This document shows, piece by piece, positions 5,429 to 63,137 of a DNA stretch of 64,000 nucleotides. A program made the translations under genes and the position numbers. The notes beneath the pieces were generated by a model. It was not told the DNA's origin. It did not search any database and saw nothing but the letters and a program-made list of their open reading frames with translations. Source of the DNA: Rhynchopus sp. YZ270_cl-10 (Eukaryota; Euglenozoa; Diplonemea; Diplonemida; Diplonemidae); NCBI GenBank assembly GCA_964035575.1, contig OZ037924.1:744001-808000 (forward strand). The letters run 5' to 3'. Numbering within the stretch: the stretch's first letter is position 1; each line of letters starts with the position of its first letter.

Positions 5429-5530
5429 CAACCGTCTTTTGTGACGAAGAGACAGCCCATCTTCAAACCCAGCGCGTTAACGATAGTGGTAAAGATGTGT
5501 GTGCACGAGAGGCACATTCATCCTACAAGT
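5429..5530 (+). ncRNA. Hairpin module B1 with long conserved 5' extension
   Basis: The hairpin at 5494-5523 is GATG, two unpaired bases, TGTGC, loop ACGAGAG, GCACA, two bases, CATC, then CAAGTTTCC. The 65 bases before it are almost identical to 44425-44499 and can form small helices (CGTC-loop-GACG, AAGA-loop-TCTT). Conservation over about 100 nt at two distant places is the evidence for a functional or mobile RNA-like unit; its role is unknown. Confidence 0.5.
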
Positions 5531-5662
5531 TTCCATTACTATTGTTCGAAGTGCCATGCTTCCGCATGAGCAAACCGCCACCCATCCCACGCTCCCACGC
5601 TCCCTCCCTCGCGAAAGATGTTGTCCATGTTTTGATTGTGGTCACGAAATTACCTCTCTTTA

Positions 5663-5702
5663 GATGTGTGTGTGCGAGAGGCATATGCATCTGTCAACTT
5701 TT
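5663..5702 (+). promoter_or_regulatory. Hairpin module B2
   Basis: GATG pairs with CATC and TGTGC with GCATA (one wobble); the loop is a shortened GAGAG. GTCAACTTTTC and a long pyrimidine tract (5694-5745) follow, upstream of the gene at 5957. Confidence 0.5.
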
Positions 5703-5899
5703 CTTCTCTTCTACTCTGTCCCTCTCCCCCCTATTCCCGCTGCATTTACCTTGCATGACTGCGGGTGTACGCACTACACACCAAGGTTTCACAAAAGAGA
5801 AAAAAAAAGAAAAGAAAAAATACTTGCCTTAGTAAACCCCCTCAAACCAGGGATATCTTGGTATTAGTGTAGACACCCGAGGATGAGCTTGGGCTCCAC

Positions 5900-5910
5900 T
5901 ATTTTTATAA
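5900..5910 (+). promoter_or_regulatory. TATA-like box upstream of the 5957 gene
   Basis: TATTTTTATAA lies 47 bases before the start codon in a locally C/A-rich leader. It is a candidate core promoter only by sequence and distance. CAACACACAG at 5925-5934 could equally be a splice acceptor. Confidence 0.25.
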
Positions 5911-5956
5911 CCCTCCCAACACCAACACACAGACCTTCATTGAAAGAAAGTTCACC

Positions 5957-7135
5957 ATGGCGAAGATTCAACTATGTGTGGCAAGCATGCTGCTCATGCA
6001 TGCATCTGCGCTGCCGGTGTCGAGTGTGACGATCCTCCCGCCTGCAGGTGGCGCAGCTGTGTCGCAGGTGCAGGGTCTGATGGCAGACAACATGCCGGCA
6101 TGGGCATCGCTTCCCGGGTCCACCTTCAAGGACTTCCCGAGCCGCTACACGGCAGCACCGTTTGCGTACACTGTGGCGGACAACCACGCCCTCGCGAGTG
6201 GGTCGTCTGTCGAGTTCACCTGTGTCGGCGCTTATGGCTGCAACATTGTTGTGTTCATGTACGAGTGCAGCCCGTGTGCGTCGAACAAGGGTGGACTCCC
6301 GACGTCGCTGGTGGTGGACGAGTTCGTGCGTTCGCGCTGTGCTCCTTCGTTCCACCTCCCATCCACGACAGGGAACGCACGCCACCTCATGACTGCGTTC
6401 GTGAAGACGATTGCTTCTGGGACAACGACCCTTGTGCTGGATGCGGGTGTGGACTTTGCGATGTTTGGTGTGAGCCAGACTGCTGCAATTGACTGCCCCA
6501 CCTGCGCACTGTGCGGCCACCCCATGAACCTCGACTTCTGCCACATGCAGGGAGGACAGTGTGGGCTCAACACATGCGTTGTGGCAGGCCCGTCACAGGG
6601 TGGGTGCTCCGGCCCGTGTGCGAGTGCAGTGCCGCTGGCAAGCCAGACGTGTGCAAACCTGGCCGGTGGCGGGTGGAGACTTGTGCGCCACTTGCCCGCA
6701 AACTCCGCAACCTTCTTCCCCGTGAACGACAACGCTGCAGGATCTGCCACACCGTACGGCACAAAGCCTGCAGACCTTGAGGAGGCGGCCACCACTGCAC
6801 CTGGATGGAGTGTCGACTACGCGGGCACGTTCACCCAGTTCCTCTTTGCCACTGGTAACTGCAAACACTATCTGATCACAGACAAATCGGAGGCCATTGG
6901 AAGCTTTTACTCAAACTCGCCACGCACTGTGATCGAGAGCAGTTACAGCAACACCCCGTACACAGCCAGGTGGTACAACCGTGCTCCTAACTCTGAGGAC
7001 CCCTGGATCTCGACCCGCGACCACTCGTACGCTGGAAGAACCACGATCTTGTACGGTGAGGTTATGTCACTCCAGTCCCTCCCTCACGGCACATACGGAC
7101 GCGAAAACGAGGGGCTGAACGTGTGGGTCCGTTGA
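5957..7135 (+). CDS. Secreted cysteine-rich protein, function unknown
   Basis: This is a 392-residue single-exon ORF. The first 18 residues (hydrophobic, ending HASALP) look like a signal peptide, so the product is probably secreted or lumenal. The middle (about residues 75-225) is rich in Cys, including paired CxxC spacings such as CPTCALCGHP. The C-terminal half begins with GGWRLVRHLPA and continues with a DN-AG-YGT motif. That arrangement recalls an uncharacterised extracellular domain I have seen in secreted proteins of marine eukaryotes; this recognition is uncertain and gives no function. There is no C-terminal membrane segment or lipid-anchor signal. The start is the first ATG in frame, with CACC before it. 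The coding part is far more GC-rich than its flanks. Confidence 0.85.
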   Translation: MAKIQLCVASMLLMHASALPVSSVTILPPAGGAAVSQVQGLMADNMPAWASLPGSTFKDFPSRYTAAPFAYTVADNHALASGSSVEFTCVGAYGCNIVVFMYECSPCASNKGGLPTSLVVDEFVRSRCAPSFHLPSTTGNARHLMTAFVKTIASGTTTLVLDAGVDFAMFGVSQTAAIDCPTCALCGHPMNLDFCHMQGGQCGLNTCVVAGPSQGGCSGPCASAVPLASQTCANLAGGGWRLVRHLPANSATFFPVNDNAAGSATPYGTKPADLEEAATTAPGWSVDYAGTFTQFLFATGNCKHYLITDKSEAIGSFYSNSPRTVIESSYSNTPYTARWYNRAPNSEDPWISTRDHSYAGRTTILYGEVMSLQSLPHGTYGRENEGLNVWVR

Positions 7136-8049
7136 ACGTAAGAAGGTAAAAACCTTTTGATTGCGCATGTTTTTACTAACGTACTTATTTGCATATCCCG
7201 CATGCACGTATTTCATGTTCTCATATTTGAGTGCTCAGGTGACAGAGCACAAGACTATGATGATCGTGTTCCCAACATTTTCCCTTTTTCTGATGTGTCC
7301 ATTCTAGGGAAGCGCACTTGCATAAATAGCCAGTAATTTGACTGCACGCGATTCCCTTAGTCACTGGATGGGGTCCCTGTAGGTCCAACCTTTTATCCTG
7401 TTGTGTTGCAACAAACAACACAATATTGGGCCACAAACCTCGTATCTCTGGGCTCATGACAGGTCATCCCTTTCCACTCCACTCCACACCCTTATGTCAA
7501 CCCCCTTTTTGGTTTCTTTTCCCATGTTCACCTTTTGACAATGCGAAATTGAAACAACAAAACCTGTATGCCTGCTGTGTGTTGCTTTCCTGCCCGTTCG
7601 CGAGAGGCACATCCACCTTGGAGGAATCTCTTTGCTTCAGGCAGTGCACGACTCGATATTACGATTGTTAGTGAATATAACAAAAGCAGCAGGTGGGTCA
7701 TTTTTTTCCATTTTTTGTCCATTTTTAACCATCATCATATCCCCAGGCCAGTTTTTATTTTTATACCTATGTAGCTTAGGTTTTGTTGCTTTAGTGTGCG
7801 GCTGTGACGAGATTTTATAGCTTGTCAAGTATAAGCTAAGCAACCCGAACACAAACGTGATGTGCAAAGCGAACAGCAGCATTTCCCATTCTGACTTCAA
7901 AGGAGTGAAGACAAACCCACGCGTCGGGGACATTGCAAAATGTGTCCGGTGTGTGTCACTGGTTTATCTACCTTTCCTTCTTTGAGCAGAAAACAGAGGC
8001 TTTTGCTCCATCTGCGGTGATGTGCTGCATTTCCCCCAATATTTTTTTG
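7136..8049. other. Intergenic spacer
   Basis: No gene is visible. Near 7598 lies CGAGAGGCACATCCACC, a decayed copy of the loop and 3' arm of the type B hairpin module. The rest is ordinary AT-rich sequence. Confidence 0.5.
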
Positions 8050-8111
8050 GTACACTGTCACGAGAGAGGGCTTTGTATTTTCAACTTTTTTTTTTTTTTC
8101 GCATATACTAG
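8050..8111 (+). promoter_or_regulatory. Hairpin module C1 with acceptor
   Basis: TACA pairs with TGTA and GTC with GGC around loop ACGAGAG (two extra bases here). TTCAAC, a run of T and an AG at 8110-8111 follow. This is the same order (helix, branch-like AAC, pyrimidines, AG) as other modules. Confidence 0.5.
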
Positions 8112-8452
8112 GAAACATTCGTTATGTACGCTTGGCAGATATCTGCACCTTCATGTTTTATGTTTTTCAGCTTTTGTTTTTGTGTGACATGTTTTTTTGT
8201 CAGTTGCCATTGCCAGCACAGCTCCTTTTGTCTGCATTCGCTCCTTTCAGGTACCTTGTAATCAAAGCCATCTCCAAAGGCTGTTCTAAGGTGACCTGCG
8301 CTTCTTACATCCTCTAATCATGGAAACTCCCTTGACCCGGCTTGCTACTCACGCAAAGCAGCCAAGCTTAATATAGGGGTATGTTTCTGTGCAGTCGTGG
8401 ACATCAAAAGTGTTGACGGTGGTTTTATACGTTGTCTTTTAATTGAAAAAAA

Positions 8453-8500
8453 GGTGACTAGGCACGAGAGGCTCAGGATCATCTTATAAACTTTTCTTTA
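8453..8500 (+). promoter_or_regulatory. Hairpin module A1
   Basis: GGTGA pairs with TCATC and CTAGGC mostly with GCTCAG around loop ACGAGAG; TATAAAC and pyrimidines follow. A donor-like GTATGTTT lies at about 8380, and CTTGCCAG about 140 bases downstream could be its acceptor, so it may sit in a 5' leader intron of the gene at 8890. Confidence 0.6.
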
Positions 8501-8889
8501 ATTTACCATTAATTCTTTGTGGAACGAAGTGTGTTTCACGTGAGACACATTAGTTTGACAAGGAATTTTTTATTTTATTTTTTTGTTTCTCTCTTTGTCT
8601 CTTTGTTCTTTCATGCTTGCAAACACTTTTCACTCGCTTGCCAGTGCCCAGTTGTCAGAGAGAGATGCAGATAGATTCCCCTCCTACACTCCTTGTTTTT
8701 TAATTGTTTCCAGGAGATACAAATTGCCTCTCCCCCTCCCTTTCCCACCCTCATCACTTGACAGGACCACTGATCACTTTTTTTTTCTTCTTTATTTTTT
8801 ACACACCATTGAATCAACATATCAGGCCACCCCCTCCATCCCCCCATCCCCCCCAATTCCCCCATCCCCCGCCTCTAGTGTAGGGATAC

Positions 8890-11409
8890 ATGGAGAGTCC
8901 GTTCCAGCCCTTTCTTGACACGTGTTCACCTCCTGCGCCGTTGGAGGATGCGTTTGCAAGATGTGGGGGCAGTGCGGGTATCCAGCTTCCACAGTGCATA
9001 TTGGGACACCGTATTCAGAAGGTCCTGCGATGTGGGGATGCGTCTGGCACGTCGTGCGAGAAGACGGCCGACTCGTTGTCTCTCCTCGTCGAAAAGGCTG
9101 GTGTGTCGTACGTCATGAAGCTTCTCCCTGCAGGGTCGCGCACGATAGGTAGTTTGTCCTTTCTCTTAAACCTCCGCCGCTTGCATCTCTGTCCGTTGAC
9201 GGATCTTTGGGTGAAGGATGGTATTATCATATGTACTCGTAAATTCTATCCTGAAGTGCCTACAGCATTGACGGTGGAAAGGATTGCAGAGCGTGTTGAA
9301 GCGGTGCTTGCGTTGACGAGCAGCCTTGGGGGGGTGTTGAATGGGAACATCAACACCGCGCCTTCGAATATAATGGAGGAGAACGGTACTGTGGTGTTGG
9401 TGGATTGGTTTGTGCCTTACCTTTCCGCGCAGCAGGCGACATTCAGGGACCGGGAGAGGTTGTGCGAATGGCTGTTCGATGCGTTGCGGGGCACGCAGTA
9501 TCCTTTGGATGTGCAGTTCCCTCCGCCACCTCCCGCGCCTTTGGGTGAGGTGGGGAGTAATTTGGGGGATTTGACGCAGGGTAGTCTTGAGAACGGAAGT
9601 CCGCAAGAGGATGGTGTTGCCTCGCATCCCGCTGCCTTTGCTGACTTTGCATCCCGCCTTATGCACACAACAGAAGACCTCGTACGGCATGAATGGCTCC
9701 TCTCGGCAAGAGAGACTTCCGCATCCCCTTTCTCCCGCCTCGCTGCGATGCGTAAAATATGTGTTGCGCCCCACAACTTCGTCTCCACCAACACCGAGAA
9801 AGAACGGCTCATCCTCAATGCACTTCTCCCTCACGTTTACAATGGGATTCCCACTGACAAATATGCGTCGGGGGCTTGCTTCAAACGGCTCAACGGATTT
9901 GCAAAGGAACACCGAAATGGTGCGATCACACACGACACATTGGCCTCCCTTGGGAAGAAGTTTCGGGATAACATTGTCCCTCCACTGCAAATGGCAGAGC
10001 CTGAGAAGGTGGAGGCTGTGTGGTACTGTAGCGAAGGGGACAGAAATGAAGACGCCTGCTGCAGCATTATGAATCTTTCTGCATACTCTGGGGTGCGTGA
10101 TGGGACGCAGGACTATGCGTGTGGTGTGTTTGATGGGCATGGGGGTGCGGAGGCGTCGCAGTACTCAAATCATCAGTTGTTGCCGGAAATTCGGAATTCT
10201 CCGTATTATGCAAGTGATATGGAGAAGGCGTGCATTTCTGCCTTCGAAACCGTCAACCGCAACTTCATCCACACCGCAGAAAGCCTCGGTGTTGACAGCG
10301 GTACCACAGCAACCGTCGTCATCATCCGTGACGGCACCCTCCACTGCGCTTCGGTGGGCGACTCATCCGCCGTGCTCTGTCGTGGCACCACTGCGATCAG
10401 GCTCTCCAAAGAACACCGTGCCTCAGACCCCACAGAACGATCTCTTGTCGAATCCCGTGGTGGCTGCGTCATGAAGGTTATGGGCACTGACCGAGTGGAA
10501 GGGCGCCTCTGCGTGACCCGTGCAGTAGGTGACCCAAGTGTCGCCAAGGTGATCTCCTGCCTGCCGTGCTACAACTCTGAAGTGCTGCAAGCTGAGGACG
10601 AATTTGTGATCGTCGCGTCTGACGGGCTGTGGGACGTCATGACCCCAGAGGAGGTGGTGGAGAATGTGTTGCAGTGCAAGGCTGAGATCGATGGCTGTGC
10701 ATCCATGGCATCACCCAGTGCGCAGGTGCCCTTCGCAAAGAGCACGGTCTTCGAGGAGCCAGAAGGAGAACTGCTTTCTCCCATCTCAGCCGACAGTCCG
10801 CGCAGCGAAGGCGTCGGTGGGGGTGGTGGCGACTTCCACTTCGGCTCGCACGGCACACTGGCGACGGTTGCAGCCCCAAAAGACTGTGTGGTACCCCTCC
10901 GCGAGCGGTCCAAAGTCTCTGCCCTAGAAGAACGCCAGCTGCTCAGCCCGTACGGGAAATGCCTTCAAGCCTGGTGCAGTGGCTATGAGTTTGACACACC
11001 GAAGAGCACCAGCAGTGTCGGGTCTTTGTATGTTAACTTATTTTTTTAAACCCTGTCACGGTTTTTGCCAGGATGTGGGGGCGTTTTCTCCCCACTTCCC
11101 CAGGGGAAAAAAATCTGCCCGATTTTTGCCCACCCGATTTCCCGTTTCCCGATTTTGAAATTTGGCAGTTTCAATCCTCTTGTAACGGCATCCTAGCGGT
11201 TTCGAGAAAGTTTTTCACAGGGGTGGTTAAAATGTTTGTTTTGCAGGTTGCGGCGAAAAAGCAAAAGCAAGCAGCGGTCTGCAAGCATCGACAGCACAGA
11301 CCAGTACGAAGACTACCAGGTGATAGCTGAGGCTCTTGCGGCTGAGGCCAGTGAACGTCTGTCCACGGACGACTGTACGATCTGCATCGCCTTCCTTAAA
11401 CAGGGGTGA
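8890..11409 (+). CDS. Pseudokinase-PP2C phosphatase fusion
   Basis: There are two exons, 8890-11027 and 11247-11409, giving 766 residues. The 219-bp intron has GTATGT and TTGCAG. Splicing adds the terminal PP2C strand with DDCTICI in frame, which strongly supports it. Residues about 370-760 form a metal-dependent serine/threonine phosphatase: RNEDACC, DGHGG (D415), GTTATV, SVGDSSAVL, VTRAVGD, ASDGLWD (D578) and the final DD are all present, so activity is expected. An insert of about 130 residues precedes the last strand. Residues about 50-215 resemble a decayed protein kinase: VMKLL with K77, then NINTAPSNIM in place of the catalytic loop and VDWF in place of DFG. Catalytic His and Asp are absent, so this half is probably a regulatory pseudokinase. 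It likely acts in cytosolic signalling; no signal peptide is seen. Confidence 0.9.
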
Positions 11410-11519
11410 AGGGACAATCTGTGTGTTTGTTTTTTTTTATTAGTTTTCTTTTTCCCCCACCTGAAGACGAAGAGACAACGTTGGAAAAGATCCATCCTGT
11501 AGTTACAACATTATCTTAT

Positions 11520-11669
11520 CATACAATGCAACGAGGCCGAATCGGCCTCGCGAAGGTCGGCTCAGGCGTGGCTGAGACGTTTGTAAGTATTAGTACGCCT
11601 CAGCCACGCCTCAGATAGATTTGCCAAGACATCTACTTTCAGGCGTAGTCGGCCTCGTTGCATTGTATG
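11520..11669. mobile_element. 150-bp palindromic MITE
   Basis: A perfect 21-bp inverted repeat (CATACAATGCAACGAGGCCGA and its complement) bounds the unit. A second inner inverted repeat is built on AGGCGTGGCTGAG. The whole could fold on itself. No clear target duplication is visible. Confidence 0.75.
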
Positions 11670-11686
11670 TCTTCTTCTTTTTTTTA

Positions 11687-11752
11687 GGTACACTGTCGCG
11701 AGAGGGCTTTGTATTTCAAGGCAACTTTACACCTTCTGTTTGTTTGCCGCAG
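11687..11752 (+). promoter_or_regulatory. Hairpin module C2 with acceptor
   Basis: GTACACTGTC, loop GCGAGAG, GGCTTTGTATTTC, then GGCAACTTT, a pyrimidine tract and GCCGCAG ending at 11752. The outer TACA/TGTA and inner GTC/GGC pairs are kept. Confidence 0.55.
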
Positions 11753-12087
11753 GATATACCGATTTTATCACACACTTTTTCACACCGTGAAAAGGTGTGA
11801 ATAGAAGTGAAAAAATAGGAAAAAAATGAGAAAGTGTGCGTGTTTCACCTCAAAATTAGGCGACTATGCAAGTGGGACTTATACGCACATGGCCGACTTT
11901 TCTCCCCCTTCGTGTTCATTATGGTCTATGGCGGCACTTCAATGAACGCAGTATGGCAGTGGAGAGGTGCAACTCCATCGTTCCAATACAAACCCTTCTT
12001 TCCCTCCCGTTTCCCGGAGGGGTATGCAGGACTATTCTGTATTGTCCTCAGGGAGGTAAACGTCCCTGCCTAAATGCAAGTTAAAAC
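11753..12087. other. Spacer without recognised features
   Basis: AT-rich sequence with a CACACTTTTTCACACCGTGAAAAGGTG inverted word near 11770 (broken across two arms). No gene is seen. Confidence 0.4.
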
Positions 12088-12731
12088 CAGGGAAATAGCT
12101 TGGGTACTTTTGCTGGTTTCAAAACCAGAACGAGCTGGTTTACTGGTTTGGGGGAAAATAAAAAAAAAAAGTGGGATTCGGGATTCAGTTTTTCGTCGCC
12201 CCCTCGCACCACTTTCCCACTCACAGAAGAAAGCCTCACACGTAAGCGAACCCCTAAAAAGGGTTCATTGAGTGACTCTGTGGTGTAAAAAGCTGCATGT
12301 TTTGGACAAAACCCTATTTTTTTTCGCCTGCGGCGCCACTTTATATTATTTTTTTGCTCCGCAAAAAAATAGAGTTCACAATGTCTTCGGGGGCCCCCTT
12401 GCATTTTGCAAGCCACAAATGCAACTTGACCAAAGCTGCAAAAAGTTGACCGTTTTTTTCAAACTGACCACCGTTGCAACAGCCCCTGCTTCTGGAAGAC
12501 GTATTGACTTTGTACGGTTAGTGGAACGTAAGGTGCAAGACCAAGCTCCGTTAACACAGGATTATATTACATTTTCTTTGTCTCGCAAAATTTACCCTTG
12601 CCTCTCCACTCTGTGGTTGGCAGGGAGGCGCGCGCGAAGCGCGCGACGACCGCTTTCAACCGGGGAAAATTTTTTGCTAAACCAGCAAACCAGCAACATT
12701 TGAAAAGTGCACCTTTCAAGCTACTACCCTG
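12088..12731. mobile_element. hAT-like non-autonomous element
   Basis: The ends match as CAGGGWARTAGCTTG inverted repeats. An 8-bp GTTAAAAC lies directly before the left end and again four bases after the right end (TTAA intervenes). The interior carries the dispersed block also seen at 20940-22015 and 38090-38440: the GCCTGCGGCGCC box, GTTGCAACAGCCCCTGCTTC, and the GCGCGCGAAGCGCGCG hairpin at 12629-12645. No transposase is present. Confidence 0.6.
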
Positions 12732-12760
12732 TTAAGTTAAAACTCTTCAAAAAAAAAAAA

Positions 12761-13597: not shown

Positions 13598-14110
13598 CAC
13601 GGGTCGGGAAAGATCTTTTTTTTTTTTTTTTTTTTCGAGAAAAAAAATCCTCTTCTCCCGAAAAAAAAAAAAAAAAAAAGATTTTTGGGAGAAAAAAAAA
13701 AAGAGAAAAGATTTGAAAATCCTGGGAAAATCCTGAAAAAATCCTGAAAAATCCTGGAAAAATCCATGAAATTTCATGAAAAATCTCGAGATCTTGAGAA
13801 ATCTTTGAAAAAAAAAAAAAAGATTTTCAAAATCTTTTTTTTTTTTTCCCCCAAAAAGATTTTTCAAAATCCCAAAAATCTTTTTTATCTTTTTTTTGAG
13901 AAAAAAAAGATTTTCAAGATCTTTTTCATCTTTTTTTCTCTTTTTTTCCTTTTTTTTCCTTTTTTTTCCTTTTTTTTTCAGGATTTTTCAAAGATCTCAA
14001 AGATCTCGAGAGATCCTGAAAAAAAAAGACAAAAATCCTGAAAATCTTGATTTTTTATTTTTTTCTCCCGAGATTCTCGAAAAAAGACAAAAGATCTTTC
14101 CTGACCCGTG
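13598..14110. mobile_element. CACGG-type palindromic MITE, intact reference copy
   Basis: The 513-bp element has inverted ends CACGGGTC(G)GGAAAGATCT. The interior is built from A- and T-runs and repeated AAATCCTG and GATCTCGAGA words that make it largely self-complementary. It sits in an A-run, so the target duplication cannot be read. It is the reference for the nested copy at 25220-29356. Confidence 0.8.
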
Positions 14111-16120: not shown

Positions 16121-16160
16121 GTACACTGTCATGAGAGGGCTTTGTCACCATTGAAAAATC
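16121..16160 (+). promoter_or_regulatory. Hairpin module C3, decayed
   Basis: GTACACTGTC, loop ATGAGAG and GGCTTTGTC remain; the outer helix is weakened. It is followed by a pyrimidine-rich stretch. Confidence 0.35.
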
Positions 16161-17080: not shown

Positions 17081-17275
17081 CCCGGTATCACATATGATAC
17101 TGATTTCCATGGATACACATGAAAAGGAGTTCCGTGCTATTCACAGAACTCGATAGGCGATTGAGCTTATCTAACAACAACCAAAACAAAAGAAAGTACA
17201 AAGAAGAGAATAAAAAATGCAGGAAAAATAGACAAAGAGAAAAACAAAGAGATTTTGACAAAGTGAACAATAAAA
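17081..17275 (+). repeat. 195-bp dispersed repeat, copy 1
   Basis: Starts CCCGGTATCACATATGATAC and ends near AACAATAAAA. It is identical by eye to 20576-20770; a diverged third copy spans 48200-49282 with an insertion. No coding signal. Confidence 0.95.
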
Positions 17276-17703
17276 GTTGAATGAGGGCTTTTCAACTTTC
17301 ACTCCACATGTATTTTCTCTCTCTACATCATGCGGTATTTCTTCGTTGCGATCTCTTCGTCGCGCAAAAGCCGAAGTGTATTCTAAAGAAGAAAAAATAC
17401 ATGTGGCGCTACGCACAGATCCACCTTCGTTGAGTTGAAGATCAGTTGACTTCTGTGACTTCTCAATTGCTTAAACTCAGTGCAAAAAAAAAAGGGAGGC
17501 AAAGTCTACAGTTACGCCCTGCCCTGTAAAAGAGCAGCGATTTTTTTTGTCACAATGTTTGACAGAAAATGTATTTGCGGCCAGTGGCTGTAGGCTGTGT
17601 CCTCTGTTTGTACCAGATGCAATGATCCGTACATTTCCCCCCCTCCCTCACTGCAGAGGTTTTTGAAATAATATGTGAAACAAAAGGAAATTTATTTCTT
17701 TAA

Positions 17704-19881: not shown

Positions 19882-19912
<31 letters not shown>

Positions 19913-20266: not shown

Positions 20267-20298
<32 letters not shown>

Positions 20299-20575: not shown

Positions 20576-20770
20576 CCCGGTATCACATATGATACTGATT
20601 TCCATGGATACACATGAAAAGGAGTTCCGTGCTATTCACAGAACTCGATAGGCGATTGAGCTTATCTAACAACAACCAAAACAAAAGAAAGTACAAAGAA
20701 GAGAATAAAAAATGCAGGAAAAATAGACAAAGAGAAAAACAAAGAGATTTTGACAAAGTGAACAATAAAA
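20576..20770 (+). repeat. 195-bp dispersed repeat, copy 2
   Basis: Identical by eye to 17081-17275 and 3.5 kb away, so the duplication is recent or maintained by conversion. The flanks differ. Confidence 0.95.
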
Positions 20771-21381
20771 TTTTTCAGGCTTTTTTGGTGGAGGATTTCC
20801 TCCATTTTTTTTTTTTTTTTTGGCGGGCTCGGGTGGAGGATTATCCTCCTAGGGGTTTTATAGTGGGGAGTCACTTTGTCTCCCCCGAGGGAGCCAATAT
20901 TTTCCCGAGCCTGTATGCACCGTCCAGGGCTGCACCTTAAAAAAAATTTGCCTGCGGCGCCATTTTCATTTTTTGCTACTCAAAAAAAGGGTTCGTTGAG
21001 TGATTCTGTGGTGTAAAAGGAAGCATTTTTACACCGTACCCTAATTTTTTTTCGCCTGCGGCGCCATTTATATTAATTTTTTTGCTCCGCAAAAAAATAG
21101 AGTTGGCAATGTCTTTGGATACCCTTGCATTTTGCAGCCAAAAAATACAACTTGACCAAAGCTGCAAAAATTTTGCCGTTTTTTTAAAAATAACCCGCCG
21201 TTGCATCAGCCCCTGCTTCTGGAAGACGTATTGGTTTTGTACGGTTCGTGGAGCGTATGGTGCAAGAGAAAGGATTAGATTTTGGTGTGGCCCGCCCCTC
21301 GATTTAACCCACTTTTGGGCCATTCTTGGGCCATTCTTGGGCCGTGTTTTTTTAGGTGTATTTTTTAATTTTTTTGCCCTT

Positions 21382-23160: not shown

Positions 23161-23164
23161 CGAG

Positions 23165-40490: not shown

Positions 40491-40493
40491 AAT

Positions 40494-44424: not shown

Positions 44425-44557
44425 CAACCGTCTTTTGTGACGAAGAGACAGCCTATCTTCAAACCCAGCGTATTCCAGCGCGTTAACGATAGTGGTAACG
44501 ATGTGTGTGCACGAGAGGCACATTCATCTTTCAAGTTTTATTTTTTTAATGATGTAG
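44425..44557 (+). ncRNA. Hairpin module B3 with long conserved 5' extension and acceptor
   Basis: 44425-44540 is nearly identical to 5429-5530 apart from a 10-base insertion. The hairpin (44500-44529) has TGTGC/GCACA and loop ACGAGAG. TTTCAAGTTTTA, T-rich sequence and GATGTAG (44551-44557) follow. Confidence 0.55.
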
Positions 44558-45392: not shown

Positions 45393-45575
45393 CACTGTTA
45401 TATTTTTATTGTTATCAAGATCAGTTGGCGGATGATATCGTCTAGTTTTTTTTTTTCCCAGACCGGGTAAATATTTTTTTTTTTTATTTTACCCGGTCTA
45501 GGGACCACTAACATATAAGGAGATAAAACCCTGTAGGTGACGCCGAAACCCAATTTTTTTCTGTTACTATTTCAA

Positions 45576-45642
45576 GGTGACTGAGCACGAGAGGCTTTCA
45601 GGGTCATCGTATTAACCTTTTTGTTGCTGTGTCTTCCGCCAG
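45576..45642 (+). promoter_or_regulatory. Hairpin module A2 with acceptor
   Basis: GGTGA/TCATC and CTGAGC/GCTTTCAG (one bulge) close loop ACGAGAG. Here the A-T pair of other copies is a G-C pair on both sides. TATTAAC, a pyrimidine tract and CGCCAG ending at 45642 follow. Confidence 0.65.
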
Positions 45643-45688
45643 TCAATGCGGTTTTTGCACTGTCAACTTCTTCGATTCTGTATCTTGA

Positions 45689-45757: not shown

Positions 45758-45972
45758 CGTGCCATGTGAGTGACTCCCCCCCCTCCCCAATGAGCTGTGT
45801 TGCGTATACCGATGGCACCCTACCATCAGAAGATGCAACCACATGCCTTCATTAGCTCTCCCTCCCCCCCCTTGTGTGGGTTTTTTTTTCTTCTTTTCAA
45901 CTGCACCTTTTTTTTGAGGTGGCAAAGTATCTGATATTTGGACTCATTTTCCAACTTTCCCATTTTATTTAA

Positions 45973-46061
45973 GGTGACTAAGCTCGAGAGGCTTAGGGTC
46001 ATCTTATAAACTTTTCTTTTACTTTTTTGGATCACGGTTCTCCAAGCACGACTCACTGTAG
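45973..46061 (+). promoter_or_regulatory. Hairpin module A3
   Basis: GGTGA/TCATC and CTAAGC/GCTTAG with loop TCGAGAG; TATAAAC and TTTTCTTTTACTTTT follow, with CACTGTAG at 46054-46061. A further decayed type B 3' arm (GGCACATTCATC) lies at 46163. Confidence 0.6.
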
Positions 46062-49282: not shown

Positions 49283-50908
49283 GGACGGTAGAAATGTTAC
49301 CAATATTCTCATGTCCAGGGGTGAAAACACAGAGGTCATGACCCTCTTTATAGCTTGGAAATCCTAAAACCCACCTTAGTTTTTTAACAGGATTGGCCAA
49401 CGGTATATTTGTCCTATGTTTTTTCTTTTGAATCATTCCCCTCACCCAATTATCATGTGCGCCACCCAGGGTAAGAGCCCAAATGGCTTCCTAAAATGGG
49501 TAAAGTAAATTCTAAAGAATTCAAAGAGAAGAGGCACAGTAGATTAGTGAGGACAAATCAAGTGGAAACATGTTTAGTTTGGTTTTGAATACACCGGTGT
49601 TTGTCTTACTGTAACTGCCATTTCCATGGGTGTTAAAGAAGGCAGATGAGGCAGGGTTTTTTCGTAATGTTTTATTGAGGTACACTGTCACGAGAGGGAT
49701 TTGTATTTCAAGTCAACTTTATTCTTTCCTCATGCAGAAAAAAAACTCTTTTTTCGTCCTTTCGAGCTTGTTTTGCGTCTTCCGCAGTTTACAATTTCCC
49801 TCCCCCCCGTATCACTTGTGATGCAGAGCCACGTGAGGCGTGTCTCCCAAACAATAAGTAAAAAGCAAATGAACGAAAAACGTTGGTAACCAAAAGAAAA
49901 CCGACGCAGGAGCTTTTCTTGGAACTGTTTTATTCTCCCCACCCCAACAACATCACATTTCAGAAAAACATTGTTTTTTTCGTTTTTGTTCACTTTCTTT
50001 TCTTCTCCCTCACACCTGGTCGCATACTGCGAGTTTTCCTGGAAGCGCAGGAAAAATGACTGGGGAGTGTTGGTGGCTCCGTGACGCCACAGAGCCGGCA
50101 CACTCGTTGAGTGCCTCACAAAACCTCAAATTTATTCCGCTTTGATTTTATTTATTGTCTTCACGCTATATTGTTGTTGTTGGGTTGGGAAATAAAAAAG
50201 CAAAAAGGAACAAAACAATGTGGTTTTTAACAGGGACTACAAACCCCAGTTGAAAGCGAGCAGTTTTTTTTTAAGTTTTCTCCCCTTCCCATGTTGAGTT
50301 GACATAGCCCATGCGCATCCACCGTTTCCACCCGCTCGTTTCTTTGGCAGGCTTGATCGACAACTGCTGGCAATGGTTAGAGTCATCTGGCAAGGCCAAC
50401 TCTACTTCACACCAGTTTTGGGCATGCTCCTTAAACAGAACATGTAGGTTGGAGGACAATGTAGCGCAGTACAATTGCACTCAGCTCGCGGTGCTTCGAT
50501 AGTGTACCGTCCACCACCATGCTCAGAGGTTTTCCTCAGAGGTAACGTCCACGCAACGCCCATCTACGCCCTCGTACAACCCACATACAGCCCACATGCA
50601 CCCAATTCTGCCGAATTACCAAAAAAGGCCCTGGAGGAAGATCTCCCACCTTTGGAGGAATCTACTTACGTCTTCTGTGCTCACGGTGAGCTGTCTTCGT
50701 TTCCTCCCCCTCGCGTTGTACCATGTTTTCGGGCATCACAATCCGCACGAGCCACCACATTCGCACATTTTTAACATGCCAATTCTTTCACGGATATCAC
50801 ACCATTTCCCCCAAACTTCCCTCACAATCCTCACAACCCGACTCAACGCCCTTTTCCCTCCCACAGTATACACATTTTCATCCCCCTCCCCTCCCCCTCT
50901 CCCCCTCT
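49283..50908. other. Intergenic spacer with module C4
   Basis: Apart from the hairpin module at 49679, I see no gene. The 700 bases before 50909 become very C-rich. Confidence 0.4.
49679..49737 (+). promoter_or_regulatory. Hairpin module C4 with acceptor
   Basis: GGTACACTGTC, loop ACGAGAG, GGATTTGTATTTC (outer TACA/TGTA kept, inner pairing weak), then GTCAACTTTATTCTTTCC and CATGCAG ending at 49737. Confidence 0.5.
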
Positions 50909-53247: not shown

Positions 53248-54494
53248 ATGAAATCCCCCTCCCAATCCCCTGAATCACAGATGGGGAAGGGGAGGACCCA
53301 GCCCCACCCCACCCCTCCTGTTACACCGGCCACCAAAAGGAAGAAGACACGCACAACGCGTGCACATATGGCCTTTGCAGAGTACTTTACGAACGCGGGG
53401 ATGGATATCGAGACTGTGTCGGACTGTCTGGCGGACGCATTGCGACGCCATCTTGAAAGCGCGCTGCACGCTGTCGGGGGTGACTATAGCAAAGTGGTAT
53501 GTACATGAAACCCTCCCCTCTATAAACAGTTCTGCGATGAACAAAACGCCATCTTTCAGTTCAGAAACTAAAAAAAAATTGAGCATTTTATTTTTAGGTG
53601 ACTAAACAGAGATTAGGATCATCTTATAAACCTTTCTTCTTTATGTTTGACGTCTCCATTACTTCCTTAGCATCCCCTTCACCCTCTTCTCACCCCTCAC
53701 AGTTTTTGATAATGGATTTGGACGAAACGATGTGGACTCCTGCCCACGGTGCCACGCAAGGCGCACTGGGTAGCGCACACTGGCTGGCCTTGATCTCAGA
53801 CGACTACCATCAACTGACCCCAGAGGTGTCGTACTCAGACCTGCAGGCAGACGTACTCCGTGTTTGCGACGTTATCTTGGGGCACATTGAAGTCAAATCG
53901 TGCGATGAAGGCACCGTAAAGCTTATTGCTGAGTGGCGGGGGAAAGGGGCGAAGGTCATTGCTGCGACAGCGCGAATGAACACCATGGCACGGGGCACAC
54001 ACATGCAGCAGTCCAATCTCTCTGGCCTCAAATTCTGCGACCTCTCCCCGGACGTCCCAGCAATCGAAGCCAAGATGCGCGCACTCTGGGCACCCCACGA
54101 CGGCTGGCCCGGCCTTTGCCATGAAAACGGCATCTGGTTTCTCTCGATGGCAAACAAAGGCCTCTTCCTGAAGGCTATTCTCGACGAAGACGTGGCCTGT
54201 GTCTTCGCAGACGACACACGGAAACACCTCATGCGTTCCCAAGAAGCATTAGGCCGGGTCCTCCCCTACCACTCCTGTATTCACTACACCGGCGCCGTTG
54301 ATGAATCCCTACGGGTATACAATGAACAAAGCTCTGATACGCATATGGGCGCAATATGCACAAGGCTGCTGAAAAGCCGCTGCAACCACTTCCAAGAACT
54401 CCTCGCTACCGACAACCTCTTCTTTCGAACGTGGCTGCACCGTGTCAAAAGCTACGTCCCCGAAATGGAACAGGTTGTCAAAAAGTTGAAATAA
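53248..54494 (+). CDS. HAD-superfamily protein of DUF2608 type with basic N-terminal exon
   Basis: Two exons, 53248-53496 and 53703-54494, joined in phase 0 (intron 206 bp, GTATGTAC to CCTCACAG), give 346 residues. The junction restores the buried strand before HAD motif I: KV joined to FLIMDLDETMW, with D88 and D90. Motif II is IAATAR, a Lys-bearing NKGLFLKAI follows, and motif IV is VFADDT. The order and the NKG block fit DUF2608, a family best known from bacteria, so transfer is possible. Phosphatase-type chemistry is expected but the substrate is unknown. The first exon gives a basic, Pro/Thr-rich stretch (TPATKRKKTRTTR) and a helix (AFAEYFTNAGMDIETVSD) I cannot place. The ATG at 53712 inside exon 2 is an alternative start but would lack the strand. 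The intron carries hairpin module A4. Confidence 0.8.
53597..53640 (+). promoter_or_regulatory. Hairpin module A4 inside a coding intron
   Basis: GGTGA/TCATC and CTAA/TTAG with loop ACAGAGA: two pairs are lost from both arms at once. TATAAAC, a pyrimidine-rich stretch and the exon-2 acceptor (ending 53702) follow. Confidence 0.7.
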
Positions 54495-54623
54495 AATTTT
54501 AAAATAGTGGGGGGTATGGGGTCTGTGATAAAAGGGGAGGGATACACAAGGTCTTAATTCCTGTTGTCCCATGGTGCTGGGGTGGTGTAGGATTTTTTTT
54601 AGGGGGCGGGATTTTTTGCTTTA

Positions 54624-54670
54624 GGTGACTAAGCACAGAGAGCGATGCTTAGTGGATCATCTCACCAATT
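54624..54670 (+). promoter_or_regulatory. Hairpin module A5
   Basis: GGTGA with TCATC, CTAAGC with GCTTAG; the loop is enlarged to 12 bases (ACAGAGAGCGAT). CACCAATTTT and a pyrimidine tract follow. Confidence 0.6.
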
Positions 54671-54689
54671 TTTTTTTCTTCTCTCAAAA

Positions 54690-54730
54690 GTGACTAAGCA
54701 AGAGGCTTTATGGTCATATGATAAACTTTT
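54690..54730 (+). promoter_or_regulatory. Hairpin module A6, short loop
   Basis: GTGACTAAGC, loop AAGAG, GCTTTATGGTCAT, then GATAAAC and a long T/C tract. It lies 20 bases after A5. Confidence 0.5.
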
Positions 54731-55380
54731 ATTTTCTTTTTCTTCTTCTTCTTTTTTTGTCAAATCTGTGCCATTACTCCCCCCCCGCTTCCCATAAAAT
54801 CTGACTCGATGGAGGTAGTTTTTTTCTTCTTTTTATTTGTGTTTCTTCCACAAAAAAAGTACGTCCGCTGAAACACTGGAAAGGATGATATTATTGTAGC
54901 GCTTTAACGTACTGTTCAGTGTATCTGTGCACAGTAAGCTCTTGAAAACAGTGGAGATTTGCACAACTGAGGCAACTGCACTACTTCCAACAATTTATCG
55001 AAAAAAAAAAAAAATAGGAGAAACGACCAGTTTAGCTTAGTGATTTCTCCTTCCCCCCCCCCTCCATACCACAATCACCACTACATGCTTGCTTTTTAGA
55101 GGTATTTGTTTTGTTACTCATGGTTGGTTTTCCTGCGGTCCTCAAAAAAAAGGGGGGGTTTTTTGTTCAAAGGTCCAACCTCACTTTTTCTCCTGCAGTG
55201 CTGGATAGTGTATTACTCCAGTTGTAATTGCGTATTCTTTTTGCAGTCAGCTGAAGCTGTGTGCGATAACGATTGTGATCAAAATGACTAGGGCTATCTC
55301 ATTAAAGCCCCCTTTTTTTTTCTTCTCTCCTCTCGTGCCTGCATCGGTCTTGAGAGGGGTGTCAAATTCACTCCTTTTTT
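54731..55380. other. Spacer between hairpin modules
   Basis: T-, A- and C-runs and short pyrimidine tracts. No gene is seen. Confidence 0.4.
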
Positions 55381-55382
55381 TG

Positions 55383-55462
55383 TGTATATGTGCACGAGAG
55401 GTGCGTTCATCTTTTCAAGTTTGTTTCATGTTTACTAACCATTACTATTTTTTTGCTCACAG
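55383..55462 (+). promoter_or_regulatory. Hairpin module B4 with TACTAAC branch point and acceptor
   Basis: ATGTGC, loop ACGAGAG, GTGCGTTCATC (paired with wobbles), then TTTCAAGTTTG, a perfect TACTAAC at 55433-55439, a T-rich tract and GCTCACAG ending at 55462. Branch point to AG is about 24 bases, a normal splicing distance. Confidence 0.6.
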
Positions 55463-55721
55463 CAACGAAATAACAATTAGGCAGAGGGGAAAGAGAAGAA
55501 GGGCAAGGAAGAGGATGGTGTGTGGAGGGGTACTGTCCAAAGTTTGCAGGTTTGCAGGTTTTTGCACTGCTTTTCACGGACACACACCCCGCACGATTTT
55601 CTTCTTGCACACTATCCTATCTTATCTGTAAGAGCACCTCCCCACACGTCTTTTACAACGTGGAGCATGCACACACACACAGCCGGCACACTGCACTATC
55701 CACGTTTTTTTTCCCCTTTGA

Positions 55722-55770
55722 GGTGACCAAGGCGAAATGATGCTCCGGTTCACCCTACTAACTTTCTTCA
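55722..55770 (+). promoter_or_regulatory. Hairpin module A7
   Basis: GGTGACC pairs with GGTTCACC (one bulge); here the 3' arm is TCACC, giving G-C where other copies have G-U. CCTACTAACTTTCTTC contains a perfect TACTAAC. Confidence 0.55.
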
Positions 55771-56021
55771 AAAAAAAAAGCAAAAAAAGGAACACTCCCA
55801 CCCTTCAAAATAACAGACCAACATAACCATTTTCTCTCTCTCTCTCTCTTTTATCCTTTTTTTTTATCATTCCCCTCCTCCTCCTCCTCCCCCATCCTCA
55901 ATACCCCCTCTCTTCCAGGCATCCCCCTCCCTCCTCTCCCATTCTCTTCCCCTGAAATACTACCTGCGTCATCAGGCAGTTGAATTTTTTTTCTTCCCAA
56001 AATCTACACATTTTTTTTCAA

Positions 56022-56086
56022 GGTGACTAAGCACACAAGCTTAGGTTCATCTCTATAAAAAAACCTTTATTTTTTTTCCAATACAG
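56022..56086 (+). promoter_or_regulatory. Hairpin module A8 with acceptor
   Basis: GGTGA/TCATC and CTAAGC/GCTTAG with loop ACACAA; TATAAAA, a T-rich tract and CCAATACAG ending at 56086, 77 bases before the start codon of the gene at 56163. Confidence 0.65.
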
Positions 56087-56162
56087 TCTTCTATACACAG
56101 CCTTTTAAACGGTATATCATATTGAGAGCTTTTTTTGGGATATTAGACAATTTTTTAAAAAA

Positions 56163-59100: not shown

Positions 59101-62100
59101 CAAATAGGGTGGAATGTCAGTCAGACGTTGTGGCGCAGTATCCAAACACCCGGGTTATAACCATTTCGAACCAAGGAACCAGGGCGGTCTCATTTGAGGT
59201 AAACCCCGACAAAACCGCCTTTGCCGATGAGATTACCGGGGTCGCCTTGCACTTTGCGCCACGAAAGGGGACGATCCCCCGGCAGGGGAGTGTTCAGGTA
59301 ACGGCGACGTACACTCCGCTGACTGTGGGGGAGTTTTATAAGAAGGTGGAGGTGCTGTGCGATAACAAAATGGCGCAAAGCCTATTTTTTGAAATCATGG
59401 GGCAAGCGGGGTGCCCGCATCTCCGAACCGATGTGACTACACTGGACTACACTGCAGACGGGATCATATCGACAGCACAGCACGGCGGCCGCGGGGTTGA
59501 CCAGAAGATTACGATTACGAACACCTCTAAAATCCCTCTCGCATACCACGTGTACTCCTACTGGGATATGATCAGCCTCGAGCAGGAGGACAGAGAAGCA
59601 CACCCGGTTCAGTTCCATGTAGACCCCGATGTTGACATCATCCAGCCCTCCGAACAGCGTGTCGTCTGCGTCACCTTCTTCCCCCCAGCCGAGCCCGGCG
59701 AGGTAAAAGACTGCATTAACGTTACCTCCGCACCAATTCTCCCACAGCACGGTGCTTTGGTCGACAATTTGACCACTGCCGACATTTTTGAGGTCACATC
59801 TCGGCAAGATATCGGCTTGCTAGACGCTTGCGCTGTATTATTAGGTTGCCTCCCACCGGTCGCTGATACTTTAATGACGGTGTTAAAAGCGGAGCCCTCT
59901 GTAGTGTTACATCACATAAAATTGGTGAATGCAAGCCGTAAAGGATTAGATCTATTAACTTCCAACCCGTCGAATGCGTTAACAGGAAGCTCTCAGTCGC
60001 ATAGTGGGTTTTTGCATTCTACTTTGGTTGCAAGGATTGTTGAGTCTGAAGCGTTGATGGGGAGGCTTGAGGCAAGTCTCCGAATGTCAACGTCTCCACC
60101 AGAATGTGTTCTATTATGCTGGGCGAAGCTTGCGTCTGCATTTTTGAAGTGTCTGCAGATTTCGAAAAAACGCATTGCCATTGCAGCGGAAATTCAGACC
60201 ATCAAATGTCATATCGTGCCTTCCCAGGTAGTCCTGCAAAATGCGTTTAAAAATGTACCACAATACGTTAACATCGAACTCCGTAATGTCTGTGCGGTAG
60301 ATGGTACCTTCCGTTGGGCGATTGTCGAAAATGAAGGCTCCACTCAGGCCACTGCGATTGCCGAGCCAAGCTCCGGGTATATCCCTGGAGGGACGACGGT
60401 GGTTTGCAAGCTCGGTATTACACAGCTTTCGAGCGAGCCGATTGATCTCATTTTACCGTGCGTTCTTAAAAACATTCCTGTTAATGGAAGCGACGACGAT
60501 GACGGAAAACAGCTGCTTCTCGGGGTGCACATCACTTCGCTGCATGAAACCCAGAATGTCGCCTTTTCTTTGGACCACAGCGACACACCGACACCGATCG
60601 AGGAGTTCTGCAGGTCTATCGTGAATGATATGGTATCCTCTGTGGTCAAGGAGGAATCTTCTCTTCTGGTCCCTGCGATCAACACTAAGGTCAACATTTT
60701 TGAGGTACACAAAAGCGACCTCACACTGAAACACATTCAAGGCGGTGAAGCTGCTTATACCCTTAATGTAGAGAAATTCCCCTCTGACACCTACAACCTT
60801 GAATCCGCAAAGGCACTATTAGCGCATACACGCAACACTGGAATGGACGTTTCAACCTATACACAAAACACGCAAAACTCAACCCTCACCTTCTCGGACA
60901 TCACTCTCTCCATGAGTGGAAGCAAAGGGAAGAAAATGAAAAGCAAGAAACTCACGCTGTCTGCGAATGCGTTGCAGTTCTCCTCAAAGGACGGCAGGAA
61001 GCATGCACTTGACAAAATGCTGGTCAAACAGGGCAGACAACAGAGCTACGAATACCTTTCAAAGGGCAACGGCTTTGCCATTGAGATCCCCCAAAGCCAT
61101 GGGGTGCTGTCACGCACAGGGGCCTCCGAGGTGTGCATTCCCCTCGAGCTTCACTCCGACCTGGCAGGCCTCTACGAAGACACGATACACCTTGAATTCT
61201 CCGACCCTGCTATCAAACCCGTCCGCATCCCAATCACCTGCACCGTCACCGGGCAACTCGTCAGTCTCTCGGAAGACACACCAGGGCTCTTCTTCCCGCT
61301 CGGTTCCCCTCCGGTTCTTCAATTTCCCGTCAACCTCGCTTCGCCCACCTTATCCCGCACAAAAGTGTTTAAAATAGACAACCCCGGCAGGGTGGACACC
61401 GAAGTGTCCTGGTCAGTGATCCTCAATGGGAATAACTGTGAGGTTTCTATCGATGAAGATGGGGTGGCAGTGAAAGAGGCAGCATCGACTGTGTCTGCGG
61501 CGTTTGAGGTGCATATCACACCAGAGAGCTGTGTGATCCAGGCTGGAGGGGCGAAGACGTTTCAGGCGGTGGTTGTTATGAGGGAGGCAGGGCAGTTTCG
61601 AGCGAATTTGACATGCAGTTGCCGCACTGCGAAGACTGCAGCCAACCTGCAGTATCTTCGTTCCTCTGTCCAAGGCAAAGGAGACAGCGCAGAAACAGTC
61701 TTGGCACACCGCTGGGAGCAGGAGGCAAAGTACGCCGCCCCTGTCCACCTGGACCTCCAGTCTGCCGCAGTCAGCAACGGTCTCACCTGCGACCCGTCTC
61801 TCCTTCATATGCTCTGCCGTGGTGCGCCTGCACCTTATTCACCAAAGAAGGACGGCTTCTGCAAAACCTTGCGCCTCACCAACAAAGTCGCCGCTGCACA
61901 AGACTTCAGAGTGCACTGTGGCGCGCCCTTCGTCCTCTCAGGCTACGCACTGCACACAAGCGGCGTGCGCTCGCTTGTCAGCAACACAGGAGACGACAGC
62001 GGCATGACGCTCTTCCAGCTCAAAAACGCGGAAAGCCTAGACCTCTATATCGAGCTCCCCTGGGGTGAGTCCGTCGCACAGCGCTACAGACAAGGCGAGT

Positions 62101-62988
62101 CGTCGATGCTGAACGGCACGCGGCCAGACCTGCTGACCATGAAGGGGTCGATGGTAGCGGGGGATGCGGTGGTCACAGCAGCAGCCTCGCAGCACAAAAG
62201 GCGTGGGCGGGTGCAGACGCAGGACGTCGTGCGTGTAGAGTCAGACATCACAGTCACCTTCGCAAACGGCGAGACCCAAAGCGTGCCGGTGCTCGCAGTG
62301 GTGCACTACCCTGCGGTAAAATGCGAACCATCTGCAGTTATCTTCGGCGAGCGCGAGGAAGACCGCAAAACAGAGTGGTGCAAGCGGATCGTATGTTTTG
62401 TTTTTAGAGAAGACATTAGATTAGGTCACTCTTAGGACCACCTCACAACATTTCTTTTCACTCTACCCACACTACTTTTAACTACAATTTGCAAACAATT
62501 AATAACTACCCACTTCCACACAGTTCCTCGAGGCCAGCACCTCTGCCCCTGTAAAGTACAGAGTCGTACACAAACCCAAAGCCAAGCCCATGACACAGCT
62601 CACCGCTGTTCTTTCGAAGGCAGAGGCGTTGAAGAGCACGTTGCAGAGGGAGACTGTGAAGCAGCTGCAGGGGTCGGTGTCGGACAAGAAGCTGGCACAG
62701 CGCATCAGCGAGGGGGAGTCGGCAGTGGCTCATGGCTTGAACGCTACGGACAACCCTGAGGCGTTCGTTTTTGATTGCACAGAGGGCGTCATCCCCGGGC
62801 AGTCTGCCGAACGCCAAATTGCGGAACTGAAGATAACATTTAAGCCTCTCGGCACAGCCTGCTTCGAATCCTGCTTCGCAATCGAGGTCGAAGGTGGGCG
62901 TGGCTGCGAAGTCACCCTAAAGGGACGCTCTGAAGACACCGAATACGGCCGCGTCGCGCGAGGTACCGCTAAGATAGTAAACCACTGA
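56163..62988 (+). CDS. Giant ASH/MSP-repeat axonemal protein (HYDIN/DLEC1-type)
   Basis: Two exons, 56163-62390 and 62524-62988, joined in phase 0 (intron 133 bp, GTATGTTTTG to CACACAG), give 2,230 residues. The start is in an AAAAAAATGG context. After an Ala/Glu-rich N-terminus and a Cys-containing segment (about 145-195) comes a beta-rich domain (about 260-390). From about residue 610 onward at least seven ASH/MSP-like immunoglobulin-fold units follow, typified by LGFTLTNKDKVSRRLNV, RVITISNQGTRAVSFEV, QKITITNTSKIPLAYHV, VFKIDNPGRVDTEVSW and LRFSPTMQGAFEGRLVFAL. Such arrays are characteristic of cilium proteins (HYDIN and CFAP65 of the central apparatus, DLEC1, CFAP47). At 2,230 residues it is far shorter than HYDIN (about 5,000). 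Which family member it is cannot be decided. The last exon (154 residues) closes the final unit. Confidence 0.88.
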
Positions 62989-63035
62989 GCATTGTTTGTT
63001 CTTTTTTGTAAGCGAAGCTTCAGGCTTTTCCCCCC

Positions 63036-63082
63036 ATGCATGAGCTCGACTGAGACGGCGTTTTAGCACGTTTCCAACTACC
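63036..63082 (+). promoter_or_regulatory. Hairpin module D2
   Basis: Shares GCTCGACTGAGA, GCGTTTTAGCACGTTTC and AACT with D1 (16495). Pairing ATGAGCT/AGCACGT has one mismatch. It ends nine bases before module A9. Confidence 0.45.
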
Positions 63083-63090
63083 TTTTTTAA

Positions 63091-63137
63091 GGTGACTAAG
63101 CACGAGAGGCTTAGGTTCATCTTATAAACTTTTCTTT
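63091..63137 (+). promoter_or_regulatory. Hairpin module A9, consensus copy
   Basis: GGTGA, CTAAGC, ACGAGAG, GCTTAG, GT, TCATC, then TTATAAAC and TTTTCTTTTTTTTTCC. Every paired position is intact. It lies 100 bases downstream of the ASH-repeat gene. Confidence 0.7.

Follow-up and report, generated by a model that had tools for sequence, protein, structure and literature searches.

Probable 3' tails of LINEs and of short elements, inserted almost entirely in one direction, in a Rhynchopus genome

We analyzed a 64,000-nucleotide (nt) stretch of the genome of Rhynchopus sp. YZ270_cl-10 (contig OZ037924.1, positions 744,001 to 808,000, hereafter the window) and the small hairpins that recur along it in three families, A, B, and C. 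These hairpins are very probably, at about 0.88, the 3' tails of long interspersed nuclear elements (LINEs) and of short non-autonomous copies with the same kind of tail; their orientation would be set at insertion. A family of LINE 3' tails is a known kind of element, and the unusual part is the near-absolute direction in which this one is inserted.

The last ~50 nt of a LINE that encodes an endonuclease and a reverse transcriptase (RT) form hairpin A. A search of the genome for reverse transcriptases listed 150 rows, and two copies of one RT class, L042 and L043, were fetched with both flanks. Over 5,455 shared bases they agree at 99.8%, and their 3' ends both read ...GCGATAACGAATATGATAAGGTGACTAAGCACGAGAGGCTTAGGATCATCTTATAAACTTTTCTTTT, where the TAA of GCGATAACGA is the stop of the second open reading frame (ORF2). 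In both, hairpin A directly follows this stop, scores E=3.5e-16 with our covariance model of family A (R1, see below), and is followed by a T-rich tract, TTTTCTTTT, which has no clear repeat unit and borders on unrelated flanks. ORF2 is 1,462 amino acids long, matches PF03372 (endonuclease, 1.7e-13) and PF00078 (reverse transcriptase, 5.3e-24), and resembles human LINE-1 ORF2p chains over positions 550-988. The best named homologues of the RT region are mostly Diplonema papillatum proteins, mostly 45-50% identical; homologues closer than these are 97%, 54%, and 50-51% identical.

Other A copies look like retroposed pieces of the 3' end of this LINE. Some of them carry 20-110 nt of extra sequence upstream, common to several copies, and in the longer ones this part corresponds to where the ORF2 coding sequence ends. 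The L032 extension shows 84.9% identity to ORF2 1367-1452 (86 residues), and its frame reads WGNDIIPDNKL...R to the stop, as in the LINE. When 32 A copies were scored against a null, LINE sequence was found upstream of five (L016, itself a reference, among them), and the remaining 27 had none past the hairpin foot.

Because A is a LINE tail, some B copies read IIPNNRL, and most listed C copies have a fixed start, the simplest reading of B and C is as short elements with the same kind of tail; they would be passengers resembling short interspersed nuclear elements (SINEs). The IIPNNRL motif stands at the ORF2-end position in three of the five B copies fetched, which were chosen for length out of 40 listed, and B apparently keeps traces of the ORF2 end of a sister LINE. 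The C unit was derived from the best 40 of 1,369 candidates; 31 of the 39 non-self matches listed start within three bases of each other, and the family looks like a ~109-nt SINE. An example of this SINE-like unit of about 109 nt, with its fixed 5' end, lies at 3004-3112 of L018. Among the listed copies, no overlap in position between B or C and the RT classes was seen by eye.

The direction of the hairpins was assessed on 515 distinct listed copies, pooled from 89 contigs; these are the first of larger sets (at most 100 per search, 40 for the long B and C queries) and not a random sample. A copy counted as testable if its neighbouring copies on the two sides lay no more than 400 kb away and had the same orientation as one another, which gave 252 testable and 263 untestable copies. 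All testable copies except one (251/252) agree with the copies that flank them. The + copy at C1:1310443, between minus-strand neighbours, falls outside the 400 kb limit and would be a second exception under a looser one. Adjacent listed pairs comprise 181 minus-minus, 184 plus-plus, 57 minus-plus, and 4 plus-minus cases. A single divergent switch from - to + occurs on 51 of the 89 contigs, 34 have copies on one strand only, and 4 have more switches. The chromosome arms look transcribed outwards. In D. papillatum, unidirectional arrays are reported to hold up to 120 genes, essentially every mRNA to carry a spliced leader (SL), and 41% of the genes to have introns (PMC10161547).

The neighbour test measures agreement among copies, and gene strand is independent of it only in the kinesins, the Pfam-supported genes of L013 and L023, and the window genes. 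The kinesin search gave 135 rows, 15 of which were excluded as additional fragments of a gene already counted; A-pattern hairpins on contigs 2-8, which have no kinesin rows, were left out of the comparison. The nearest listed copy is on the strand of the kinesin in 22/23 cases within 50 kb and 41/43 within 100 kb, then in 65/70 within 200 kb and 84/94 within 400 kb. Both exceptions within 100 kb straddle a switch from - to +. In L022, the longest ORFs are opposite in strand to the hairpins, and these ORFs have no Pfam match.

RT rows were sorted into classes by hand, from E-values and open frames, with 2 of the 150 left out, and counted as concordant, discordant, or untestable. The A-ending LINE class (1462) has 19 concordant, 0 discordant, and 8 untestable rows. 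The corresponding numbers are 4, 9, and 8 for the 1364 class, which has endonuclease, RT, and RNase H, and 11, 7, and 4 for the 1322-1862 class; antisense copies are thus present in both, and therefore antisense elements survive. Counts for other classes, in the same order, are 0/1/4 (class 1329), 1/1/4 (1320), 0/0/14 (1505-1803), 4/1/3 (1747), 6/2/1 (3381), 5/1/2 (2034), and 1/2/5 (986). LINEs usually insert in a nearly random direction or with a mild bias. Our searches of open-access papers for the direction of retroposons within gene arrays, strand bias in LINE insertion, and elements of diplonemids showed no case as strict.

Within the window, copies were counted at E<=0.02 with three covariance models: R1 (family A), built from window copies, and R2 (B) and R3 (C), built from window and fetched-locus copies. 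The R1 scan was unfiltered, and the R2 and R3 scans used default filters and E<=1. We found 17 hairpins (9 A, 4 B, and 4 C), all on the + strand. A preliminary description of the window had claimed at least 17 + strand copies, which agrees with this count, and the 11 coordinates it proposed for model-building all turned out to be hairpin copies. The best minus-strand score of R1 was E=0.69, and R2 and R3 had no minus-strand match at their scan settings. Two A copies absent from its training set, 54686 and 55719, were recovered by R1. The B model detects the A copy at 63088 (E=0.003), and therefore the families share one plan. The two strands of the window together hold 10 occurrences of the motif ACGAGAG (8 on +), against 3.7 expected, and none of 100 shuffles reached 10. 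Seven window copies were folded: four gave z-scores of -3.2 to -3.9 (63089, 44498, 5661, and 56020), the A copy at 45574 gave -1.8, and the A-like copy at 55720, whose folded stretch lacked part of the outer arm, was no better than shuffles (z 0.06). The remaining one, from family C, is taken up below. The copies are as follows.

5491-5538, +: B hairpin tail, preceded at about 5429-5490 by what remains of a sister-LINE 3' end; R2 E=6.6e-9; 5429-5532 against 44425-44538, 88%
5660-5707, +: B hairpin tail; R2 E=9.9e-8; fold z -3.9
8047-8096, +: C hairpin tail; R3 E=3.6e-10
8450-8498, +: A hairpin tail (LINE 3' end); R1 E=5.4e-14
11685-11732, +: C hairpin tail; R3 E=1.2e-12
16123-16145, +: C hairpin, partial (model positions 6-29); R3 E=0.0024
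44497-44544, +: B hairpin tail, with an upstream remnant (from about 44424); R2 E=3e-10; 39 other places listed for a 119-nt query
45573-45623, +: A hairpin tail, diverged; R1 E=9.3e-12
45970-46018, +: A hairpin tail; R1 E=1.1e-14
49677-49724, +: C hairpin tail; R3 E=3.7e-14; weak fold, z -0.7
53594-53638, +: A hairpin tail in an apparent cis intron (about 53497-53704, by eye) of a gene with a DUF2608 match; R1 E=1.8e-11
54621-54676, +: A hairpin tail, enlarged loop; R1 E=2.3e-9
54686-54733, +: A hairpin tail, diverged; R1 E=2.8e-6; outside the training set
55380-55427, +: B hairpin tail; R2 E=8.3e-6
55719-55768, +: A-like hairpin with outer arm TCACC, then TACTAAC; R1 E=0.014; outside the training set; z 0.06 when a shortened stretch was folded
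56019-56071, +: A hairpin tail; R1 E=1.3e-10
63088-63136, +: A hairpin tail, top R1 score of the window; R1 E=2.3e-15

The genome searched comprises 152 Mb in 126 contigs, and the pattern counts are lower bounds. The A pattern occurs at no fewer than, that is at least, 3,408 places (<=2 mismatches), the exact B pattern at at least 135, and the C pattern at at least 509 (<=3 mismatches); the reversed pattern of each family, used as a control, occurs at 0. Comparison of the arms confirms that they differ between A, B, and C and still pair. Covariation within A, which had also been proposed, was not borne out. Holding the loop constant and letting the inner stem vary, we find the consensus stem in 64 of 100 listed A copies. 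Another 30 have one change, which keeps the pair in 8 and breaks it in 22, and 6 have more than one change, three of them (one variant) being fully paired. We estimate that unconstrained decay would keep the pair in about one third. Among the paired changes named as examples, TCACC (55722) is true, CTAA with TTAG (53597) is a shortened consensus, and CTGAGC (45576) pairs imperfectly. Stem changes within A look like those of decaying repeat copies, and constraint would act on the source element. The view that this structured RNA matches no known family was upheld: the window has no gathering-level Rfam match. The best E-value of a long A copy is 1.4, not a credible match; a structured host RNA gene was rejected on this ground and on the lack of A, B, and C matches in the snRNA cluster described below.

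TTT lies within the 6 nt that precede the hairpin foot in 26 of 60 copies, against 12 of 60 at -30 to -24. On the other side, a 60-copy tail profile confines the T-rich tract to about +10 to +25 past the helix; the profile leaves out hairpins with E>0.05, those within ~220 bases of a locus end, and L025 (where one + match, E=0.041, and one - match, E=0.019, both weak, lie close together). The ORF2 protein would bind the stem-loop by reading the constant loop, the arms needing only to pair; a constant loop with free but paired arms is what stringent-type binding of LINE tails predicts. The protein would then nick a T-rich target, on which the U-rich RNA end, UUUUCUUUU, would prime, and copying would run inward, mostly only to the hairpin foot. 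Such priming is plausible because T is enriched before the hairpin foot and after the tail. The one-way rule would originate as copies insert, through some polar process, for example exposure of the non-template strand displaced during transcription or of one replication-fork arm. In its full form, which we hold at even odds, this mechanism has the LINE clade and its passengers read chromosome polarity, restricting their insertions, genome-wide, to a single strand of DNA that is transcribed (or replicated co-directionally), via a T-rich single-stranded target (transcription bubbles, R-loops, or one fork arm), and mostly leave a 50-nt hairpin.

The preliminary description had read hairpin, branch-like AAC, and pyrimidine tract as a branch-point and acceptor module of host transcripts. 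This reading is not supported, since the three together are the LINE 3' end, and we infer that AAC and tract are the element's own. AG is not a positional signal either: CAG or TAG occurs at 3.3 per 100 at +30 to +40 (60 copies) and at 0.2-4.2 in the other bins. One A copy lies inside a cis intron of a LETM1 gene (upstream exon PF07766), whose reading frame demands the 5' splice site CAA/GTATGT, 12-14 nt upstream of the hairpin, and excludes AAG/GTGA (the slash marks the junction); in this one case the repeat unit is not equal to the intron. The copy at 53594 lies within the apparent intron, with limits set by eye, of the DUF2608 gene, the product of which presumably resembles MDP-1 phosphatases. 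A universal hairpin before branch points was rejected after folding the 36 nt that precede sites with a branch-like motif and a pyrimidine run, with a mean of -5.29 at 38 sense sites (some overlapping) against -6.64 at 19 antisense sites. The host branch signal TACTAAC exists (10 sense vs 2 antisense) but differs from the common A tail. At 55719-55768 of the window and at 4347-4388 and 4828-4867 of L021, TACTAAC or TACTGAC comes after A-like hairpins that have diverged. These may represent additional tail families or may have been adopted as branch points.

Could the hairpins nevertheless be a host RNA element at 3' splice sites, presenting the branch point for cis-splicing and SL trans-splicing? 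We consider this very unlikely. Their near-strict sense direction, the AAC and short T-rich tract that follow them, the copies within two cis introns, and the sense-enriched TACTAAC (10 to 2) after a few diverged hairpins would fit such a role, in a genome that has spliceosomal RNA genes and an SL-like gene. However, the identical sequence is the 3' end of a LINE, AG stands at no fixed distance, stem changes within A mostly break pairs, and the 5' splice site of LETM1 is set by frame upstream of the copy. In addition, the segments upstream of branch-like motifs fold no better on the sense strand, and the branch-binding segment of U2, GUGUAUUAUC, would pair best with UAAUAAC, not TTATAAAC. Identity to the LINE 3' end also refutes, already for A, an origin as miniature inverted-repeat transposable elements (MITEs), foldback DNA transposons, or introners. 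This origin is scarcely credible, even if the elements are short and hairpin-forming, with thousands of copies, some intronic: they show no duplications and one direction, and the repeated unit does not reach from one splice site to the other. Absence of target duplication and restriction to one strand had been put forward as tests against a MITE, and both come out so, but a retroposon can pass them too.

If the hairpins are LINE tails, their direction could still have causes other than one-way insertion. Selective removal of antisense copies is one, which we hold to be unlikely but worth serious attention. In its favour, two papers on Leishmania report roles in mRNA decay for SIDERs, accompanied by a sense bias of about 4:1 (PMC2689281, PMC11520807). 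Against selection, antisense LINEs persist in the same arms (9/13 testable in the 1364 class), and exact-consensus, presumably young A copies are already one-way; it can also be argued that a 50-nt antisense insert between genes would hardly be worse than a 4-kb one. It is highly improbable that one-way insertion only mirrors its targets, with T-tracts mainly on the sense strand. The flank at the hairpin foot is T-rich and pyrimidine runs of >=20 number 72 sense vs 39 antisense, but in 214 kb the sense strand has 250 runs of >=8 T and 202 of >=8 A, which is too even for 251/252. Sense-strand T-tracts were rejected as the cause of direction on account of these nearly even counts.

The reading of the hairpins as LINE tails places them near stringent-type LINEs, the proteins of which bind a stem-loop in the 3' tail of their RNA, with specific recognition of the loop and only general recognition of the stem (PMC4176376). 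Like these LINEs (UnaL2, ZfL2-1, and ZfL2-2) and their partner SINEs, the elements described here have a 3' stem-loop after ORF2 of an autonomous LINE, encode endonuclease and RT, and share the same tail with short non-autonomous copies. Unlike in UnaL2, ZfL2-1, and ZfL2-2, the tail here ends in a T-rich tract, the A copies sampled mostly consist of nothing but the hairpin, target duplications were not observed, and insertions run one way. The Leishmania SIDERs (derivatives of the ingi/L1Tc clade) are likewise numerous short retroposons, sense-biased in the polycistronic arrays of a euglenozoan. In gene clusters, their sense copies outnumber antisense ones by about 4:1, and the antisense copies are concentrated between poly(A) and trans-splice sites (PMC2689281), whereas we observed 1 exception in 252, and a 3' hairpin is present here. 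Introners, known from Amoebophrya and others, are also short intronic repeats with hairpins, but the repeat unit here is not an intron.

Several observations weigh against the hairpins being LINE tails with an orientation set at insertion. The ORF2-end motif is missing in frame from L016 and L034, two of the three long A copies scanned, and from two of the five fetched B copies. Hairpin A at the LINE end was seen in the 2 fetched rows of the 27 in the 1462 class. The LINE partner for the B and C tails is a prediction, and the autonomous LINEs fetched (L042 and L043) end in A. The C copy at 49678 folds no better than shuffles (z -0.7). LINEs usually make target-site duplications; we found none in 59 copies (49/300 permutations reach the observed word length), and the flanks of L043, inspected by eye, show none beyond T. 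The 5' ends lack the usual spread of truncations. Three further RT classes are also all one-way, namely 1619-1901 (6 concordant, 0 discordant, 4 untestable), 1597 (4/0/1), and 1057 (3/0/2), and one 3-kb end stretch read from the 1619-1901 class had no hairpin words; the one-way rule may therefore not be unique to the A-ending LINE clade. Finally, a few copies are possibly used by the host, some being intronic and a few diverged ones carrying TACTAAC.

A one-way LINE family beside a two-way class in the same genome makes a natural experiment on the effects of transcription and replication on target-primed reverse transcription. If the proposed mechanism is true, hairpin scars would mark the direction of transcription or replication along every chromosome arm, and in annotation the hairpins may serve as a cheap marker of the direction of gene arrays. 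They are also ready RNAs for tests of tail binding by ORF2 proteins in a phylum far from animals. The case further illustrates that a LINE tail can resemble a splicing element when the sequence is read on its own.

The SL-like sequence and the RT relatives suggest a diplonemid host. Loci L029 and L030 (G000:C1) and 46 listed U2 places hold a repeated cluster with U2, U4, U5, and signal recognition particle RNA genes above the Rfam cut-off. The cluster also has an SL-like RNA gene and, below the cut-off, U1, U3-like, and 5S matches; in places the spacing between U2 copies is ~29 kb. In L029 and L030, the branch-binding segment of U2 is GUGUAUUAUC in place of the consensus GUGUAGUAUC. The SL-like gene, picked by eye on the minus strand of L030, reads ...CTACAGTTTCTGTACTTCATTG/GTATGG... 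and has a terminal hairpin and a T-run; we take it to resemble a diplonemid spliced leader. The A, B, and C queries had no match in L029 or L030 at E<=0.01. Elsewhere, L013 has a tyrosine recombinase ORF of the phage-integrase type (7631-8701, +), on the strand opposite to a TMEM43 gene. The window itself also contains a 198-nt direct repeat, 99% identical (17081-17278 and 20576-20773), a 77-nt family starting with AAAAGTAGCGTACCGTGCGCCTGCGGCGCA... at 475, 3964, 15206, and 23178 (77-88% alike), and long tandem arrays from about 37325, 39363, 48524, and 63910, with spacings of 8, 9, 14, and 8 nt, respectively.

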